The notes under the pieces were generated by a model that was given only the letters and a program-made list of their open reading frames with translations, ran no database searches and had not been told where the DNA came from. Shown here piece by piece: positions 6,333-19,974 of a stretch of DNA of 64,000 bases (its first letter is position 1; each line of letters begins with the position of its first letter). Both the position numbers and the translations under genes were made by a program. The stretch is from Aggregicoccus sp. 17bor-14 (lineage in GTDB: Bacteria; Myxococcota; Myxococcia; Myxococcales; Myxococcaceae), in NCBI RefSeq assembly GCF_009659535.1, contig NZ_VJZZ01000003.1:442947-506946 (forward strand). Reading direction: 5' to 3'.

Positions 6333-6917
6333 ATGAAGACCTCCCCCCTCCCCCGATCCTTCCGGCTCGTGGCGCTGCTGCTGCTGGGCGCGCACGGCTC
6401 GGCGTGGGCACAGGACGCTGCGGCGCCTGCTGCGCAGCCGGCGACCCCTGCGGCCACCGAGCCCGCGCCTGCCGCCTCCACCGAGCCCGCGGCCGCGGCC
6501 GCCTCCGACGCGCCGGTGCAGGCTCCGGCGGCGACGCCCCCCGCTCCGGCCACGGGCCTGCCCCAGTACACGCCGCGCCCGATGACCCGCGCGCAGCGTG
6601 AGCTGCAGCGCCGGCTCAGCCTGCGCCACTACGCGCTGATGGGCACGTCGCTGGTGCTCACCGGCGGCGGCCTCTACTTCGGGGCCAAGTCCAAGGGCAG
6701 CTTGAATCGCGCGCACGCGGCGCAGACGCAGATCGCCGCGCAGGATGCGCTCAAGAGCTCGCGCGAGCAGGCGCGCGCGGCCAACTGGGCCTTCATCGGG
6801 GCGGGGACCGCGGTGGTCGCCGCGGTGGTCACCTACTTCATCAGCCCGCCCACGCCGCCGCCGGAAGAGCCGGGCTCCAGCCCCTACAGTGGCTCGCTCT
6901 ACGGGGTGTCGCGATGA
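6333..6917 (+). CDS. hypothetical envelope protein, Ala/Pro-rich, two membrane segments
   Basis: 194 residues. Signal peptide to about residue 26 (LVALLLLGAHGSAWAQ), an Ala/Pro/Glu-rich linker (27-85), then two hydrophobic stretches (about 108-125 GTSLVLTGGGLYFGA and 149-171 IGAGTAVVAAVVTYFI) separated by a charged helix, and a Pro-rich tail. No family is recognised. The stop codon overlaps the next start by ATGA, so it is cotranscribed and coupled with the Cys-rich lipoprotein that follows, suggesting a shared envelope location. Confidence 0.75.
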   Translation: MKTSPLPRSFRLVALLLLGAHGSAWAQDAAAPAAQPATPAATEPAPAASTEPAAAAASDAPVQAPAATPPAPATGLPQYTPRPMTRAQRELQRRLSLRHYALMGTSLVLTGGGLYFGAKSKGSLNRAHAAQTQIAAQDALKSSREQARAANWAFIGAGTAVVAAVVTYFISPPTPPPEEPGSSPYSGSLYGVSR

Positions 6918-8455
6918 GCGCGCGCACTGCCTCCCTGGTCCTCGCCCTCGCCGCCGGCGCGCTGGGCTGCAACGTGGTGGACCCGGTGGCCTCGCTGCAC
7001 GAGTTCACGGACAGCTGCACCGTGCGCGAGAACTGCTCGGACGGCTTCGTCTGCGCGCAGGGCCACTGCGTCACGGGCCCGGGCGACGAGTGCCGGGAGG
7101 GCTTCAAGGTGGCTCCCTGCGAGCTCACGGCGGGCGTGTGCGCGGGCGTCGAGCGCGTGTGCCTGCCCAGTGGCCGAAGTGAGGCCACCTGCAGCGGGGT
7201 CTCCTACGGCCCCACCTACGAGGTGCGCGAGACCACCTGTGGCGACGGTCTGGACAACGACTGCGACGGCCTGCCGGACGCGCGCCGCGGCGTCCAGCTC
7301 GCCGTGACCTCGGACTCCAGCCTCTACCTTCGGATCCTGGACGCACGCGTCGTGCGCTTCGGCGCCGGCTACCTCGCCGCCTATGTGGATCATGTCTGGC
7401 TCGCCCCGACCAACAGCACCCCCATGCGCAAGTCGGTGGCCTACCGGGTGCTGGACGCGAAGCTGGGCCTGGCCGGCAAGTTCGCGCAGACGCTGGGGCT
7501 CTACGCCGCCACCATGGAAGTCCACAACCTGCAGGTCATCCCCTACGACGCAGGCGCCTTCATCACCTGGACGACCGACGTGCCGGACCCGGCGGATCCG
7601 AAGGTTCAGCACCGGGTGCGCAAGGTGAGCCGCGTCGACGTCGGCGGCGCCGTGGACGGGTCCTCGGTGGGGATTGCCGAGCGCGAGCTGTCGCTCCCCA
7701 CGGCGGACCCGTACGCCCCGGTGCGCGCGGCCGTCGCCAACGACCACTCGTCGGTCGTGTTCACCTGGCTCGAGAACGGCGTGCTGGTGGGCCAGGCCTT
7801 CGGGATGGACCTCAAGCCGCTGAGCGGGAAGGTCACGCTGAGCGCTCCGGGGCCGGGAGATTCCTCCAATCCCTCCCTCAACCTGCAGGACATCTCGCCG
7901 CAGGGCAGCTCGGGCTATGCACTGGGCTGGAGCGTGGCGGGGTGGAGCAATGGCTCGCGCAACGCCGTGCGCTTCCGCACTGCCTCCAGCAGCCTCGACC
8001 AGCTCGGCGAGGTGACGGGCGCGGATGCCCCCGGCACGGTGAACGACCTGCGCCTGCTCGCGACCCTCGCTCCCTCCGACGAGCCGCTCGCGGCCTGGCT
8101 CACGACCTCCTCCACGCAGGGCGTCACGGCCTCGGCGGTGGGCACCGGCGTGGTGGTGGCCCGGCCCTTCAGCCCCGAGGGGACCATCCGCCCGCCCGTG
8201 GGGCTGGAGGGCGTGTCCCAGCTCAACGTCGTGCGCGTAGGCGACGGCCTGCTGATGACCTACCCCGAGCCCCAGGGCGACTCCGAGGTCCAGTTGGTGC
8301 GGCACATCGCGGCGGATGGAACCACGTCGGTGCGGCAGCTCGACTCGGGGAGTGTGACCGGCACCGTCACGCTGCTGCCCGACGTGGACGCCTCCATGTG
8401 GACGGGGGCGTACATCCAGAGCGATCGCCTCCGCATCGGCGCTACCTGCCACTAG
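6914..8455 (+). CDS. Cys-rich lipoprotein with MopE-type motif (duplicate 1)
   Basis: 513 residues. Lipoprotein signal ending LAAGALGC (Cys 19). Residues 20-115 are Cys-rich (CTVRENCSDGFVCAQGHC, CELTAGVCAGVERVC) and end in GDGLDNDCDG, the acidic MopE-type putative metal-binding motif widespread in myxobacterial surface proteins. Residues 120-510 are beta-strand rich with no recognised enzyme motif; a propeller-like fold is possible. A close paralog follows at 8581, and both have the same hairpin after the stop. Probably displayed on the outer membrane. Confidence 0.8.
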   Translation: MSARTASLVLALAAGALGCNVVDPVASLHEFTDSCTVRENCSDGFVCAQGHCVTGPGDECREGFKVAPCELTAGVCAGVERVCLPSGRSEATCSGVSYGPTYEVRETTCGDGLDNDCDGLPDARRGVQLAVTSDSSLYLRILDARVVRFGAGYLAAYVDHVWLAPTNSTPMRKSVAYRVLDAKLGLAGKFAQTLGLYAATMEVHNLQVIPYDAGAFITWTTDVPDPADPKVQHRVRKVSRVDVGGAVDGSSVGIAERELSLPTADPYAPVRAAVANDHSSVVFTWLENGVLVGQAFGMDLKPLSGKVTLSAPGPGDSSNPSLNLQDISPQGSSGYALGWSVAGWSNGSRNAVRFRTASSSLDQLGEVTGADAPGTVNDLRLLATLAPSDEPLAAWLTTSSTQGVTASAVGTGVVVARPFSPEGTIRPPVGLEGVSQLNVVRVGDGLLMTYPEPQGDSEVQLVRHIAADGTTSVRQLDSGSVTGTVTLLPDVDASMWTGAYIQSDRLRIGATCH

Positions 8456-8580: not shown

Positions 8581-10194
8581 ATGCACCCGTACGCGCAGTA
8601 CCAAGTCCTGATGTCGCAGCACGCAGCGCACGCGCGAGGCTCGCGCGCCACCGCCCTGCTCCTCGCGCTCGCCGCCGGCGCGCTGGGCTGCAACGTGGTG
8701 GACCCGGTGGCCGGGCTGCACGAGTTCACGGACGCGTGCGTCGTGCGCGAGAACTGCTCGGACGGCTTCGTCTGCGTGCAGGGCCACTGCGTCACCGCCC
8801 CCGGCGCCGAGTGCGTCGAGGGCTTCAAGGCCGCGCCCTGCGAGCTCACGGCCGGCGTGTGCGCGGGCGCCGAACGCGCATGCCTGCCCAGTGGACGCAG
8901 CGAGGCCACCTGCAACATCGCTGCGTACGGTCCCCACTACGAGCCCGTCGAGCTCAGCTGTGACGGCCTGGACAACGACTGCGACGGCGTCGCGGACGCG
9001 CGCCGCGTCGTCTCGCTGCCCATCCTCACGTACTCCTCGTTCTCCGGAACCGCCACCGAGATGCACGCCGTGCGCTTCGGCAGCAACTACCTCGCTGCGT
9101 GGCTCGACAACAAGCGCAACGTCGGCGTCACGGGCCGCAGTGCAATCTCCTATCGTGTCCTCGACGCGCGCTTGATGCCCATGAGCAGCGGGACGGTGGA
9201 GCTGGAGGGCTACGACGCCAGCATCGACAACAACACCGGCCTTCCCCGCTCCACGTCCTCCCGGGTGGCCGGCCTGCAGCAGGTGCGCTTCGCGGGAGGC
9301 GCATTCATCCTGTGGTCCAGCTTCGATGCGTCCACGAGCCGCAACGTGCACAAGATGGTTCGCCTGGATGCCGTCGCCGCGGCATCGGGCGCGGTGGTGG
9401 GTGCTGCGCCGCGCGCGCTGACGCTGCCGGGCTCCCCTGCCCCCTCGCTCGACGGCGTCCGCGCGGCCGTGGCCGCCGATGGCTCGAGTCTCCTCGTCGC
9501 GTGGCTGACCGGCACGCAGGTGATGGGGCAGTCGTACAATCTGGACCTGACCCCGCGCGCGGAGCCCGTGGTGCTCAGCGCGTCGCTCGCCTCTGACGAC
9601 TACGAGCCCTCCCTCGGCCAGCTGGACGTCTCTCCCCACGGCAGCTCGGACTTCGCGGTGGCGTGGGGCAGCACCGCGTCGGACGGGACGAGCCGGCGCG
9701 TGGTGCGCTTCCGCACCGTGTCCGGGGACCTCGCGCAGCTCGGCGAGGTGGTGGGCTCGGACGTCAAGGGCGCGCTCTCCGGCCTGCGACTGCTCGCCGG
9801 CACGACTCCCAGCGAGCAGCCGCTCGCGGCGTGGCTCACGCAGGCGGAGACCTCCAGCAGCAGCTCGGTGCATGCGGCCGCCTCGACAGGGGGCGACCTC
9901 GTCGTCGCGCGGCCCTTCACGCCGTCGGGCCCGGCGGCTCAGCCGGTGGGCGTGACGGGCGTGCGGCGCCTCGATGCGGTGCGCGACGGCGACGACCTGC
10001 TGCTGCCCTACGTGGAGGGCAGCTCGCTCGTGGTGAGGCGGATCGGGGCAGACGGCACCACCGAGGTGCACTCGCTCGGCGCTCCGGCGGACGCGAGCGC
10101 CTTCGCGGTGCTCACGGACGTGGACCCTGCGCTCTACACGGTGGCCTTCACCCAGGGAGGCACCCCGCAGGTGGGCGCGACCTGCCGCCACTGA
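8581..10194 (+). CDS. Cys-rich lipoprotein with MopE-type motif (duplicate 2)
   Basis: 537 residues. ATG 8581 has AAGGAG 8 bases upstream. The lipobox LAAGALGC falls at about residue 38 because of an extended N-region. The Cys-rich module (about 38-135) is nearly identical to that of the gene at 6914, including CVVRENCSDGFVC, CELTAGVCAGAERAC and GLDNDCDG, while the C-terminal 400 residues have diverged although they align throughout. The pattern suggests duplication with conservation of the exported Cys-rich head. Function unknown. Confidence 0.8.
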   Translation: MHPYAQYQVLMSQHAAHARGSRATALLLALAAGALGCNVVDPVAGLHEFTDACVVRENCSDGFVCVQGHCVTAPGAECVEGFKAAPCELTAGVCAGAERACLPSGRSEATCNIAAYGPHYEPVELSCDGLDNDCDGVADARRVVSLPILTYSSFSGTATEMHAVRFGSNYLAAWLDNKRNVGVTGRSAISYRVLDARLMPMSSGTVELEGYDASIDNNTGLPRSTSSRVAGLQQVRFAGGAFILWSSFDASTSRNVHKMVRLDAVAAASGAVVGAAPRALTLPGSPAPSLDGVRAAVAADGSSLLVAWLTGTQVMGQSYNLDLTPRAEPVVLSASLASDDYEPSLGQLDVSPHGSSDFAVAWGSTASDGTSRRVVRFRTVSGDLAQLGEVVGSDVKGALSGLRLLAGTTPSEQPLAAWLTQAETSSSSSVHAAASTGGDLVVARPFTPSGPAAQPVGVTGVRRLDAVRDGDDLLLPYVEGSSLVVRRIGADGTTEVHSLGAPADASAFAVLTDVDPALYTVAFTQGGTPQVGATCRH

Positions 10195-11592: not shown

Positions 11593-12219
11593 CTAGCCCT
11601 GCGAGCGGGGCTTCGCGCCCAGGCGCTCCATGGCCTGGCGGAAGGCGGGGTACTCGTGCGCGCCCTGGATGGCGAGGCGGTCGCCGAGCACGAAGGTGGG
11701 CACGGCGCTCACGCCCATCTCCTGCGCCTCGCGCACGGCCTCCTCCACCAGGGCGCGGTAGGTGCCCGCCTCGAGCGCGGCCTGCAGCGCGTCCGGGTCC
11801 AGGCCGCTCTCCTCGGCGGCGCCGCGCAGGGTGGCGTACTGCCAGAGGTCCTCGCCGTCGCTCCAGTAGCGGCGCAGCAGCGCGGCGTGGAAGGGCTCGA
11901 GCTGGCCGTGGGCGCGCGCGAACTCGGCCGCCTCGTGCGCGCGGCGCGTGGAGGGGATGACCTCTCGCTCCACCATGGTGAGGCCGGCGGCGCGCGCGCG
12001 CAGCTTGAGGGGGTTGTTCGGGTCCTTCATCCGCTCACGCACGTAGGCGGGCAGCGGCAGGCCCTCCGGCGGCGTCTCGGGGCGCAGGAAGAACGGCCTC
12101 CAGTCCACCTGGACGTCGAACTCCCTCTTCAGCTTCTCGACCTCCACGAGGCCGACGTAGCACCAGGGTCAGACGAAGTCGGACCAGACGCGGATGACGA
12201 CGGGGGCGGGCGTGCTCAT
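11593..12219 (-). CDS. FrnE/DsbA-family thiol oxidoreductase, predicted selenoprotein (in-frame TGA = Sec17)
   Basis: From ATG 12219 (GAGGT about 6 bases upstream) the frame reads MSTPAPVVIRVWSDFV, then TGA at 12169-12171, then PWCYVGLVEVEKLK and on to TAG at 11593. The TGA falls exactly at the first Cys of the DFxCPWC active site, so read-through gives UPWC in a 208-residue protein. Downstream features are typical of FrnE-like DsbA proteins: STRRAHEAAEFARAHG and the cis-proline motif GVSAVPTFV. A SECIS-like hairpin follows the TGA. Without recoding, the product would lack the active site or need a GTG start inside that hairpin. Role: cytosolic disulfide or redox chemistry; substrate unknown. 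Confidence 0.85.
12137..12155 (-). promoter_or_regulatory. bacterial SECIS-like hairpin
   Basis: In the mRNA, UCGGCCUC (complement of 12148-12155) pairs with GAGGUCGA (complement of 12137-12144): 8 bp with one G-U pair around a GUG triloop (12145-12147). The loop begins after 21 bases from the UGA and has G first. This agrees with the known bacterial SECIS pattern (loop roughly 16-37 bases downstream, G in its first two positions) recognised by SelB. Confidence 0.75.
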
Positions 12220-12280
12220 GGCGCTACCTCTAGCGCCGTGCGGCGGCCCGCGCCACCGCGAAAAGCGCGGGGCCGCCCGC

Positions 12281-16445: not shown

Positions 16446-18245
16446 TCAGCGGGACTCCAGATAGGCGCGCAGGTCCGCCTGCGCCTGCGCGTCCAGCGCG
16501 CCTACGCGGCCGTGCACCTCTCCGCCCGCGCACGCGCCGAAGACGTCCTGGAGCGAGAGCGCGCACCCGTCGTGCAGGTAGGGTGCGCGCAGGGCGAGGC
16601 CCTCCAGCGGCGGCGCCTGGAAGCTGCCGCCCGTGCCGATGTCCGCGCTCACCGCCTGCACGCCGCGCGCGCCCGCGTGACAGCTGTTGCAACCCAGTTG
16701 CGTCGAGCCGAACAGCGCCTCGCCCCGCGCGACCGCCGCTGCGTCCAGCGGGAGCGGCGCGGGCTCGGCGGGCAGCGTCTCCAGCCAGCGCGAGAGCGCC
16801 GTCACGTCCTCCGCCGGAGGGACGGGCACGCCCATGCGCACCACCAGGGTGTCCTTCAGCGCGGAGGCCACGTCCGGCACGGCTCCGTCCCAGTGGAAGG
16901 GGGCCGTGGCCGCGAGCCCCCCGCCCAGCGGCGGCGTGCGCCGCGCGCCCAGCGACTCGAGGTGCCACACGCGCCCGTCCTGCGTGCCCTCGGGGTGGCA
17001 GGAGGCGCAGGAGATGCCGCTGGGGGCGGGCTCGTAGAAGCGGCGGTGGCCGGCGTCCCCCGCGAGGTGCTCGCCCAGGGTGAGCGCCTGGTACTCGGGT
17101 GTGCCCAGCAGCCGCACCAGCCCCACCGGCTCGCGCGTCTGCACCAGCAGCGTCCCCGCGGGGGAGAACGCCGCGGCGATGGGCTGCGCGTAGAGCTGGA
17201 AGCTGCGCTCGCCGGACAGCGCGCAGTCGCCCTGGCGTCCGCCCGCGAGCCACGCGCGGCTGCCCACCATCACCCGCCGGCTGCCGGCCGCGACCGCCAC
17301 CACCCGGTCTCCCGCGGGCGAGAACGCGAGGTCTCCGGGCAGCACGCCGAGCGCCGCCTGCAGGTCGCGTCCCTGCGCCGCGCCGGAGGCCGAGCGCTGG
17401 TAGAGGGCGCTGTGCACCACGCCGTCGCCGCAGGTGGGGTCGCCGGCGAGCGGCTCCAGGCCCGCGTACGCAGGGCGCCCGGAGGTGGCGTGCAGCGGCA
17501 GGGTCGCGGTGGAGGCCAGCTGGTGCAGCAGCAGCAGCCCGCCCTGCGGGTCCGCCACGAGGCGCGAGGCCACGCCGGGCTCGAAGGCCACGTAGGCCGC
17601 GGAGCCGGGCGCGCCCACGGGATGGAGCGCTGCGGGCCGCACGCGCTCCGCCACCTGCCCGTTGACGTCCACCCGCAGCAGCTCCGCGCTGCGGAAGCGG
17701 CTCACCCAGAGCTGCTCGCCGTCGAAGACGACGTCGCGCAGGTCCGCCGCCAGGTGCAGCGTGCTCAGCGGCGCGCCACCCTCGGGCAGCAGCGCCACCA
17801 GCTCGCCCCCGGCGCAGGCCACGTACAGCCGCCCGAAGCCATGGGTGAGCCCGCGCGGCGCCGGGCACACCGCGCGCCGCGAGAGCACGCTGCCGCGCTC
17901 GACGTCTAGCGCCACGACGCCGCCGCCGCGGCGCAGCAGCACGTGCACCCGGCCCGCTTCGTCCTCCACCAGGCGCCCCGGCTCGTCGCCCGGCTGCAGC
18001 GCGAGCTGCGCGTGCACCTGCCACGCGGCGAGGTCCACCACCCACACCGCGTCGCGGTCGGGGTCGGCCGCCACGGCGTAGCGTCCGTCGTGGGTGACCA
18101 ACAGCGTGCCGCCGCTCACCGGGCGCGGCACGGGCTCGGCGGCGGGTACCTCGGGCGGCGGCGGCGGCTGCTCGGGCACGGAGGGAGCGCTCCCCGTGCA
18201 CGCGAGCAGCAGCGCCCCCAGCAGCGCTGCGAGCGCTCTACTCAC
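16446..18245 (-). CDS. lipoprotein with beta-propeller and two c-type haem motifs (cytochrome-c-peroxidase-like C-terminus)
   Basis: About 599 residues. The start is uncertain: GTG 18245 gives a compact lipoprotein signal (LAALLGALLLACTG), TTG 18254 is in frame too. Residues about 45-400 have propeller-like repeats (GGTLLVTHDGRYAVAADPD, DLAFSPAGDRVVAVA). CASCH near 413 and CNSCH near 519 are haem c attachment sites in domains like those of di-haem cytochrome c peroxidase/MauG relatives. Predicted periplasmic electron-transfer or oxidase role. The start overlaps the stop of the upstream PQQ-like propeller gene, so the two are coupled and probably act together. Confidence 0.82.
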   Translation of the reverse strand: MSRALAALLGALLLACTGSAPSVPEQPPPPPEVPAAEPVPRPVSGGTLLVTHDGRYAVAADPDRDAVWVVDLAAWQVHAQLALQPGDEPGRLVEDEAGRVHVLLRRGGGVVALDVERGSVLSRRAVCPAPRGLTHGFGRLYVACAGGELVALLPEGGAPLSTLHLAADLRDVVFDGEQLWVSRFRSAELLRVDVNGQVAERVRPAALHPVGAPGSAAYVAFEPGVASRLVADPQGGLLLLHQLASTATLPLHATSGRPAYAGLEPLAGDPTCGDGVVHSALYQRSASGAAQGRDLQAALGVLPGDLAFSPAGDRVVAVAAGSRRVMVGSRAWLAGGRQGDCALSGERSFQLYAQPIAAAFSPAGTLLVQTREPVGLVRLLGTPEYQALTLGEHLAGDAGHRRFYEPAPSGISCASCHPEGTQDGRVWHLESLGARRTPPLGGGLAATAPFHWDGAVPDVASALKDTLVVRMGVPVPPAEDVTALSRWLETLPAEPAPLPLDAAAVARGEALFGSTQLGCNSCHAGARGVQAVSADIGTGGSFQAPPLEGLALRAPYLHDGCALSLQDVFGACAGGEVHGRVGALDAQAQADLRAYLESR

Positions 18246-19974
18246 CGTAGACAAACAGGTGGCCCGCGTTCATCGAGTAGATGCGGCCCTGCGCGTCCAG
18301 CACGGTGGGCGTGTAGCCCGAGCGCAGCGAGCGCTGGAGGAAGGCGCGGGCCTTCTCCTGACCGCCCTGGGCAATCTGGTACAGGTTGCCGTCCTCGCTC
18401 GCCACGTGCACGGTGCCGTTCTTGTCCACCGCGGGAGCGTTGATGCACCACTCCTGGCCGTCGCCCTCCACGGTCTGGCAGGTGACCTGGCCGTCGGCGC
18501 CGCGCTCGCACACCTTCGGGTTGTTCGCCTTGTGCTGCCACTCCACCTGCAGGTCGCGCGAGAGCTGGGTGATGAAGAACTCCTCGTCCGCGGGCAGGTT
18601 CGCGTAGTGGTTGTCCTTGAGGAGGATGGAGTAGGTGTCGTCGTGCCACCACACCGCCGGGGTGATGTCCCAGCCGAACCCGTAGAAGCCCATCACCTCG
18701 CCGCTCTTGCCGTTGAACTTGATGAGGTGGCCGCGCGAGCCGTTGTAGCCGGAGTAGCTGCCGTAGAGCACGTGACCGTCCGGGAGCACCACGGGCGAGG
18801 CCGTGCTGCTGTCGTTCACCCGCGCGGCGGGGCGCTGGTTGGTGTTCGGGTCCACGCCCTTCGTGGCCCCCGAGCGGCAGCCCTCCACCGTCACGCCGCA
18901 GCCGTCATCGAAGAGGTCGCGCAGCGAGCGCGCCCACTTCGGGGTGAGGTCCGGGTTCACCGCGACCAGGTACGAGTAGCGGTCGTTGCGGTGCGCGCGG
19001 CTCACCACGTACACCGTGCCGTCCGCCCCGATGGCCGGCGAGGAGTTGATGCCCGGGCGCTGCGAGAAGCAGGTGGCCTGGGGAGGCTGCGCGGGCGAGC
19101 CGTCCGCGTTGGGCGGGGGCGGCAGCGGCTTCGGCGCGTTGCTCGAGAAGGCGGTGTAGCAGAGGGCGCCCGGCTGCGGCGCTCCGGGCACCAGGTCCTG
19201 GTAGCGGGCGCTGCTCACCTGGTCCGAAGCGGATACGCGCACCAGCCAGCTCTCCGCATCCGCGGTGGGGTTCGTCAGGTCGAGCTGCACCACGTTGTAG
19301 AAGACGTTTCCCGCGCCATCGATGGCCGGCGGCCCCGCGACGTGGGCCTTCGCCCCCACGCTCGGCGGGACGAGCCGCTTCACCAGCGCGCCCGAGTGCC
19401 GGTCCACCTTGTGCAGCGCGCCGCCCGCGCCCGGCACGTAGAGGAAGTCGCCGAAAGCGGCCGCGTGGAACATCTGCTCGAAGCCGACCCCTACGATGGG
19501 CTTCCAGTCGCTCGCGTAGTCCCACTGGTGCACGAGCTGGCCGTTCACCCACTTGAAGTAGCTCTCGTTCCACACCTGCGAGTCGTAGTCGGCGGCGCTG
19601 CAGGAGGCCGGCGAGGACTGGCAGGGCGTGTACGCGCCGGACTTCACCTCGGTGTAGACGTCATCGCCCATCACCAGCGGCGCCTGGTAGTGGATGAGCA
19701 GGTCCCCGTCGGTGGTGAGCGGGTCCGTCTCCTGCCCCACGAAGGGGTCGTAGACCACGTCCGCGAGGATGCGCGCGGGGCGCTTCGCCACGGCGTCGAT
19801 CACGCCGCGGTGCGAGCTGTCCCCGCCCACCTGGGTCCACTGCGTGAGGGGCGCCGGCGCGGGCACCTTGTCCCCGGTGGAGGGCTCGTCGGACATGCAG
19901 GCGGACGTGGCGACCAGCAGGCCCAGCGCCGCAGTAGCGGACGTGGCGATGGCGAAGCGGAGACGTGAGCGCAT
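18238..19974 (-). CDS. PQQ-like beta-propeller lipoprotein
   Basis: 578 residues with lipoprotein signal ALGLLVATSAC (Cys 26). The body consists of propeller blades with recurring patterns such as PAIGADGTVYVVSRAH, SPVVLPDGHVLYGSY, PAVDKNGTVHVASEDGNLY and a final TVLDAQGRIYSMNAGHLF, as in PQQ-binding-like repeat proteins; six Cys suggest periplasmic disulfides. Quinone-dehydrogenase active-site residues are not evident, so a BamB-like scaffold or a sensor role is possible. It is first in a two-gene unit with the haem-containing lipoprotein, suggesting a redox pair. Confidence 0.85.
   Translation of the reverse strand: MRSRLRFAIATSATAALGLLVATSACMSDEPSTGDKVPAPAPLTQWTQVGGDSSHRGVIDAVAKRPARILADVVYDPFVGQETDPLTTDGDLLIHYQAPLVMGDDVYTEVKSGAYTPCQSSPASCSAADYDSQVWNESYFKWVNGQLVHQWDYASDWKPIVGVGFEQMFHAAAFGDFLYVPGAGGALHKVDRHSGALVKRLVPPSVGAKAHVAGPPAIDGAGNVFYNVVQLDLTNPTADAESWLVRVSASDQVSSARYQDLVPGAPQPGALCYTAFSSNAPKPLPPPPNADGSPAQPPQATCFSQRPGINSSPAIGADGTVYVVSRAHRNDRYSYLVAVNPDLTPKWARSLRDLFDDGCGVTVEGCRSGATKGVDPNTNQRPAARVNDSSTASPVVLPDGHVLYGSYSGYNGSRGHLIKFNGKSGEVMGFYGFGWDITPAVWWHDDTYSILLKDNHYANLPADEEFFITQLSRDLQVEWQHKANNPKVCERGADGQVTCQTVEGDGQEWCINAPAVDKNGTVHVASEDGNLYQIAQGGQEKARAFLQRSLRSGYTPTVLDAQGRIYSMNAGHLFVYGE

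Follow-up and report, generated by a model that had tools for sequence, protein, structure and literature searches.

An in-frame TGA at the active site of a FrnE/DsbA-type gene

We analysed a 64,000-nucleotide stretch of the Aggregicoccus sp. 17bor-14 genome (the window), in which a single minus-strand frame runs from ATG 12219-12217 to TAG 11595-11593 with one internal stop, TGA 12171-12169. This TGA is codon 17 and occupies the column of the first cysteine in DFV(U)PWC; with the TGA read as selenocysteine (Sec), the product has 208 aa and begins MSTPAPVVIRVWSDFVUPWCYVGL... The features of the locus are as follows.

11593..12219, minus strand: coding sequence of a predicted 208-aa FrnE/DsbA-type selenoprotein (Sec17, Cys20), stop codon included (from the frame, Pfam, alignment A2 and the structural model)
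12169..12171, minus strand: TGA codon 17, predicted to specify selenocysteine as the first residue of the U-P-W-C active site (from TGA or TGC/TGT at that column in orthologues)
12137..12155, minus strand: SECIS-like hairpin in the coding sequence, with arms 12155-12148 (TCGGCCTC) and 12144-12137 (GAGGTCGA) and loop GTG 12147-12145 (from comparison)
12227..12230, minus strand: plausible Shine-Dalgarno GAGG, 7 nt 5' of ATG 12219 (from direct reading of the sequence)
11698..11700, minus strand: codon of P174, the thioredoxin-fold cis-Pro (SAVPTFV; invariant in the 28-sequence alignment A2)

A mechanical list of open reading frames contains only GTG 12147-11593, a 184-aa protein without the active site, whose false start at GTG 12147 is the hairpin loop itself (12147-12145). 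A preliminary description of this DNA had placed the TGA at the first active-site Cys of a frame opening at ATG 12219, and had expected standard callers to return the truncated GTG 12147 protein; its coordinates and description are right, and the list of frames shows exactly this truncation. Standard ORF calling yields a truncated protein without the active site in many myxobacterial genomes. Besides residue 17, Cys20 is the only cysteine in the protein. No obvious signal peptide was found in it, and its N-terminus leads straight into the first strand of the fold.

Both flanks of the TGA (VVIRVWSDFV before, PWCYVGL... after) align to FrnE/DsbA proteins. Pfam DSBA spans residues 9-197 (E 1.1e-33), and the best PDB match by sequence is Deinococcus radiodurans FrnE (5.5e-25). 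An AlphaFold model of the 208-aa protein has a mean pLDDT of 92.8 and, when searched with Foldseek, gave FrnE 5coh as its best match (32% identity, E 9.8e-16, TM 0.84 normalised to the query). Across the 28 relatives of alignment A2, neither the active site D-x-V-C/U-P-x-C nor the cis-Pro P174 varies, in keeping with the FrnE/DsbA sequence on either side of the TGA and the cis-Pro motif that had been described earlier. The features of the FrnE subfamily, namely the DSBA domain, a CP(W/F)C-type active site (here with Sec for the first Cys) and the cis-Pro loop, are all present.

A C-terminal CX4C is found in many, not all, FrnE proteins and is not strictly defining. It is absent from the present protein sequence, which has no Cys beyond Cys20 and residue 17. 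FrnE of Streptomyces roseofulvus and of D. maricopensis are likewise without it (PMC8945050), so that its absence does not bar membership of the FrnE group. D. radiodurans FrnE (DR_0659; PDB 5cnw, 5coh, 5cp1), like the window protein a predicted cytoplasmic oxidoreductase, shares the fold (TM 0.84) and the CP(W/F)C-type active site (PMC8945050), but it has Cys where the window protein has Sec, and it uses in its regeneration a C-terminal CX4C that the window protein lacks. None of the NCBIfam models (June 2026) reaches its cut-off on the 208-aa protein, and annotation pipelines that depend on such models therefore have no rule for it.

The genome encodes selenocysteine machinery

The genome of the window (6.92 Mb, 99.95% complete) contains a tRNA-Sec (75 bits, anticodon tca), selA (567 bits), selB (327 bits) and selD (382 bits), all scoring above curated cut-offs. 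The window lies on contig C3, and the genome search places the sel genes on contigs C4, C8, C12 and C15. This agrees with the preliminary description, which had reported no selA, selB, selC or selD in the window and had proposed looking for them in the same genome, where selA, selB, selD and tRNA-Sec were all found. The selD gene (L048:1399-2451, minus strand) has an in-frame TGA of its own and encodes a Sec-type protein with HCAG-U-AAK (HCAGUAAK), so the genome's selenophosphate synthetase itself needs Sec decoding. Upstream of selD, at L048:2473-3864 (minus strand), a TPR-like and an FHA-like frame are continuous but for one TGA (EDAG-TGA-WFRRS); these are most likely two adjacent genes sharing a frame by accident.

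Relatives have Sec or Cys at the active-site column

An alignment of homologues, also proposed earlier as a check, showed TGA or TGC/TGT at exactly the active-site column in close orthologues. We surveyed 195 Myxococcota genomes, 69 of which have a close relative at E <= 1e-50 (counted from the table). One in-frame TGA was listed for 41 of these 69. In 30 of the 41 we located it, the other 11 being listed without position, and it fell at the active-site column in 29 of the 30 (29/69 of the genomes with a close relative). The TGA of the remaining genome, G148 (L158), was rejected as a Sec codon, since this copy reads TGT in the active-site column and the TGA lies instead at its C-terminus. A further 28 of the 69 genomes have no in-frame TGA, two of them being represented by fragments only, and most of the other close relatives have TGC or TGT at the column, including some at 70-76% identity. 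Among named genomes, TGA is found in Archangium violaceum, A. lansinium, Corallococcus exercitus, C. sicarius, C. carmarthensis, C. interemptor, Pyxidicoccus fallax, P. caerfyrddinensis and a Myxococcus sp., and Cys in Myxococcus qinghaiensis, M. eversor, M. dinghuensis, strain AM401, Corallococcus terminator, C. praedator and Citreicoccus inhibens. Cys is the residue that usually replaces Sec in relatives of selenoproteins. The retention of an in-frame TGA at this column in many genomes argues that its placement is not due to chance.

A TGA followed by a hairpin was also seen at the same column in a bacterial MAG (L087:4056-4622) and in a Chloroflexi MAG (L094:5001-5570), and Sec-containing FrnE is, judging from these sequences, probably not confined to Myxococcota.

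The distribution bears on whether the TGA is simply a stop, either as a nonsense mutation in a pseudogene or because a shorter functional protein starts at GTG 12147, the start offered by the mechanical ORF list. This explanation is very improbable and we regard it as effectively refuted: the TGA stands at one column in dozens of genomes across genera, with the protein conserved before and after it and the frame open downstream. A protein starting at GTG 12147 would moreover miss the entire active site together with the first strand, both invariant in the family, and this start is itself unconserved, the position lying in the hairpin loop and reading GGT in the Corallococcus copies.

A conserved SECIS-like hairpin follows the TGA

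The hairpin has an 8-bp stem and a three-base loop with G first, the loop starting right after the 21 nt 3' of the UGA; counting the T of the TGA as 1, positions 17-24 pair with 28-35. Taken alone, the window hairpin has a folding energy that is not exceptional (z -1.08 vs shuffles), and the case for a SECIS element therefore rests on comparison. An Rfam scan of the window gave no match; bacterial SECIS elements are expected to be too variable for Rfam.

In a first set of UPWC sequences, 21/21 Sec copies pair 7-8 of the 8 positions and have G in the loop, and 21/21 further TGA copies pair 8 of 8. Across 14 distinct sequences, pairing is seen in 98.2% of cells, both sides have changed in four of the pairs, and covariation reaches 0.224 vs 0.092 in shuffles, with 0/500 shuffles as high; when the register is slid by 1-3 columns, pairing falls to 26-53%. 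The two-sided changes (C-G to U-A in L077, U-A to A-U in L022 and a stem rebuilt by four such changes in L034) all come from these three divergent sequences, L034 lying on a very long tree branch. Draws of random synonymous codons matched the observed pairing in 0.03-7% of cases, depending on the sequence; many of the Sec copies are closely related, and these per-sequence probabilities are not independent. In the Cys copies of Myxococcus, Citreicoccus and others the stem is shorter or interrupted (5-7 of 8) or the loop is different. Those of Corallococcus terminator, C. praedator and G030 have a perfect stem (8 of 8) with loop GCC, which in Corallococcus looks like a fossil SECIS that has outlasted a recent switch from Sec to Cys; part of this stem could, however, owe its preservation to codon constraint.

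Read-through of the TGA as some other residue (near-cognate Trp or Cys) has in its favour that Cys would likewise give an active enzyme. We nevertheless hold it to be very unlikely, given the full Sec machinery with tRNA-Sec and a Sec-type SelD, a hairpin that pairs fully or almost fully wherever the codon is TGA and has decayed in several TGC/TGT copies, and an alternative residue in relatives that is always Cys. The TGC or TGT of the relatives at 70-76% identity might suggest that a TGC became TGA through sequencing or assembly error, but this is scarcely credible, the TGA recurring at the column in separately sequenced genomes of Archangium, Corallococcus, Pyxidicoccus and Myxococcus and the Sec-type hairpin being perfect in the window.

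The Sec machinery, the Sec/Cys column in homologues and the covarying SECIS hairpin strongly support reading TGA 12171-12169 as Sec, as the preliminary description had proposed. Taken together, this sequence analysis suggests, with a probability of roughly 95%, that the gene encodes a FrnE-type thiol-disulfide oxidoreductase of the DsbA family with the active site Sec17-Pro-Trp-Cys20, its UGA being decoded via SelB and the downstream SECIS hairpin.

Proposed mechanism and role

We posit that the mRNA would fold the SECIS hairpin inside the coding sequence, immediately 3' of the UGA, and that SelB carrying Sec-tRNA-Sec, helped by this hairpin, would decode UGA 12171-12169. Sec17 would then be the attacking residue of the enzyme, engaging a disulfide to form a mixed selenosulfide, which Cys20 would resolve to leave a Sec17-Cys20 selenenylsulfide. 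This bond may be reduced by an external reductant, thioredoxin or glutathione, as suggested by FrnE and by the absence of other cysteines; an external reductant would be required because the protein has no other cysteine and, in particular, no C-terminal CX4C. The enzyme is probably cytoplasmic, since it has no obvious signal peptide. Its function is proposed from FrnE at about 32% identity: the window protein probably reduces or isomerises disulfides in the cytoplasm when the cell is under oxidative or metal stress, cadmium and diamide sensitivity being the phenotype of the D. radiodurans frnE mutant (PMC8945050).

Relation to known DsbA-like selenoproteins

COG2761 is the FrnE group, and the genomes of L031, L033 and L035 may be those of Anaeromyxobacter. 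That Sec can stand for the catalytic Cys in DsbA-like proteins, as the preliminary description stated, is already known from UxxC forms that include COG2761 (PMC1088965, PMC1794560, PMC13188914). A COG2761 DsbA-like UxxC selenoprotein was reported from the Sargasso Sea in 2005 (PMC1088965), a DsbA-like selenoprotein from Anaeromyxobacter dehalogenans in 2006 (PMC1794560, Table 3), 'DsbA 1' and 'DsbA 2' selenoproteins from GOS (PMC2398784), and a 'DsbA-like protein form 1' (PF01323, UxxC) in a 2026 inventory (PMC13188914). Sec-containing FrnE is thus not new as a kind of selenoprotein, DsbA-like UxxC forms having been reported in 2005 and 2006. The COG2761/PF01323 proteins (including AACY01178397 and NIP15863.1), likened here by description, belong to the same Pfam family and have Sec at the N-terminal position, but come from marine metagenomic reads or other lineages, unlike the myxobacterial gene of the window.

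The A. dehalogenans selenoprotein is also myxobacterial, DsbA-like and Sec-containing; it probably belongs to a paralogous UPFC clade, unlike the UPWC protein of the window. This distant clade (L023-L026, L028-L031, L033, L035) has U-P-F-C at 33-41% identity (36-41% for L031, L033 and L035), and its hairpin differs, being SECIS-like AGCCTGGTCAGGCT with loop GGTC. We found no published report of the window protein's own myxobacterial subfamily in the open-access library searched. What is new is the present member, the misleading truncated ORF, and the repeated exchange of Sec and Cys at one conserved locus with the Sec machinery kept.

Probable exchange of Sec and Cys at one locus

Labelling the tree by Sec or Cys requires seven changes, at least five of them forced by well-supported branches; no root was inferred for the tree, so that the number of changes by itself says nothing about their direction. 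A convergent large gene stands ~1.3-2.1 kb from the FrnE gene in Corallococcus, Myxococcus, Pyxidicoccus and Citreicoccus, beside Sec and Cys copies alike, and this shared neighbour places the copies of these four genera at the same locus, which speaks to orthology, not function. The tested genomes with Cys copies (G016, G022, G030, G032 and G034) still have selA and tRNA-Sec, so that a loss of Sec decoding did not compel the change between Sec and Cys. The surroundings of the gene differ in the window's own genome: its neighbours there (MFS/spermidine synthase-like, acyltransferase, GATase and others) do not accompany the gene at 35 other loci, save for one partial 38% match in L057 to the window's cytochrome/MauG-type protein. 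As neighbours are not shared, we draw no function from gene context.

On balance, we favour the reading that one orthologous myxobacterial FrnE gene, largely at one locus, has undergone no fewer than five Sec/Cys switches with the Sec machinery kept, and that at least one Cys lineage (Corallococcus terminator/praedator) retains an intact fossil SECIS, which would make the change there a recent one from Sec to Cys. If true, this would amount to a natural experiment on the benefit of Sec to a FrnE enzyme. A single genus can hold both Sec and Cys orthologues at a shared locus, with the machinery still in place; such matched pairs allow one to ask why Sec persists in some cases and disappears in others, an old question in selenium biology.

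Other features of the genome and window

A second candidate DsbA-like selenoprotein lies on the same contig, ~78 kb outside the window (L051:2289-2891, plus strand; G000:C3:364788-365390). It has 200 aa, with WDDFLUPWCW and a TGA at codon 12, and ~28% identity to the window protein; its TGA is at the same place in two genomes of the same order (G047 and G058; 58-61% identity). Within the window, 6914-8455 and 8581-10194 (both plus strand) are adjacent, clearly similar lipoprotein-like ORFs (513 and 537 aa) that share LALAAGALGCNVVDPVA.LHEFTD close to their N-termini, and are probably a tandem duplication. The minus-strand gene at 16446-18254 encodes a 602-aa protein whose C-terminal part matches cytochrome c / MauG-type proteins.
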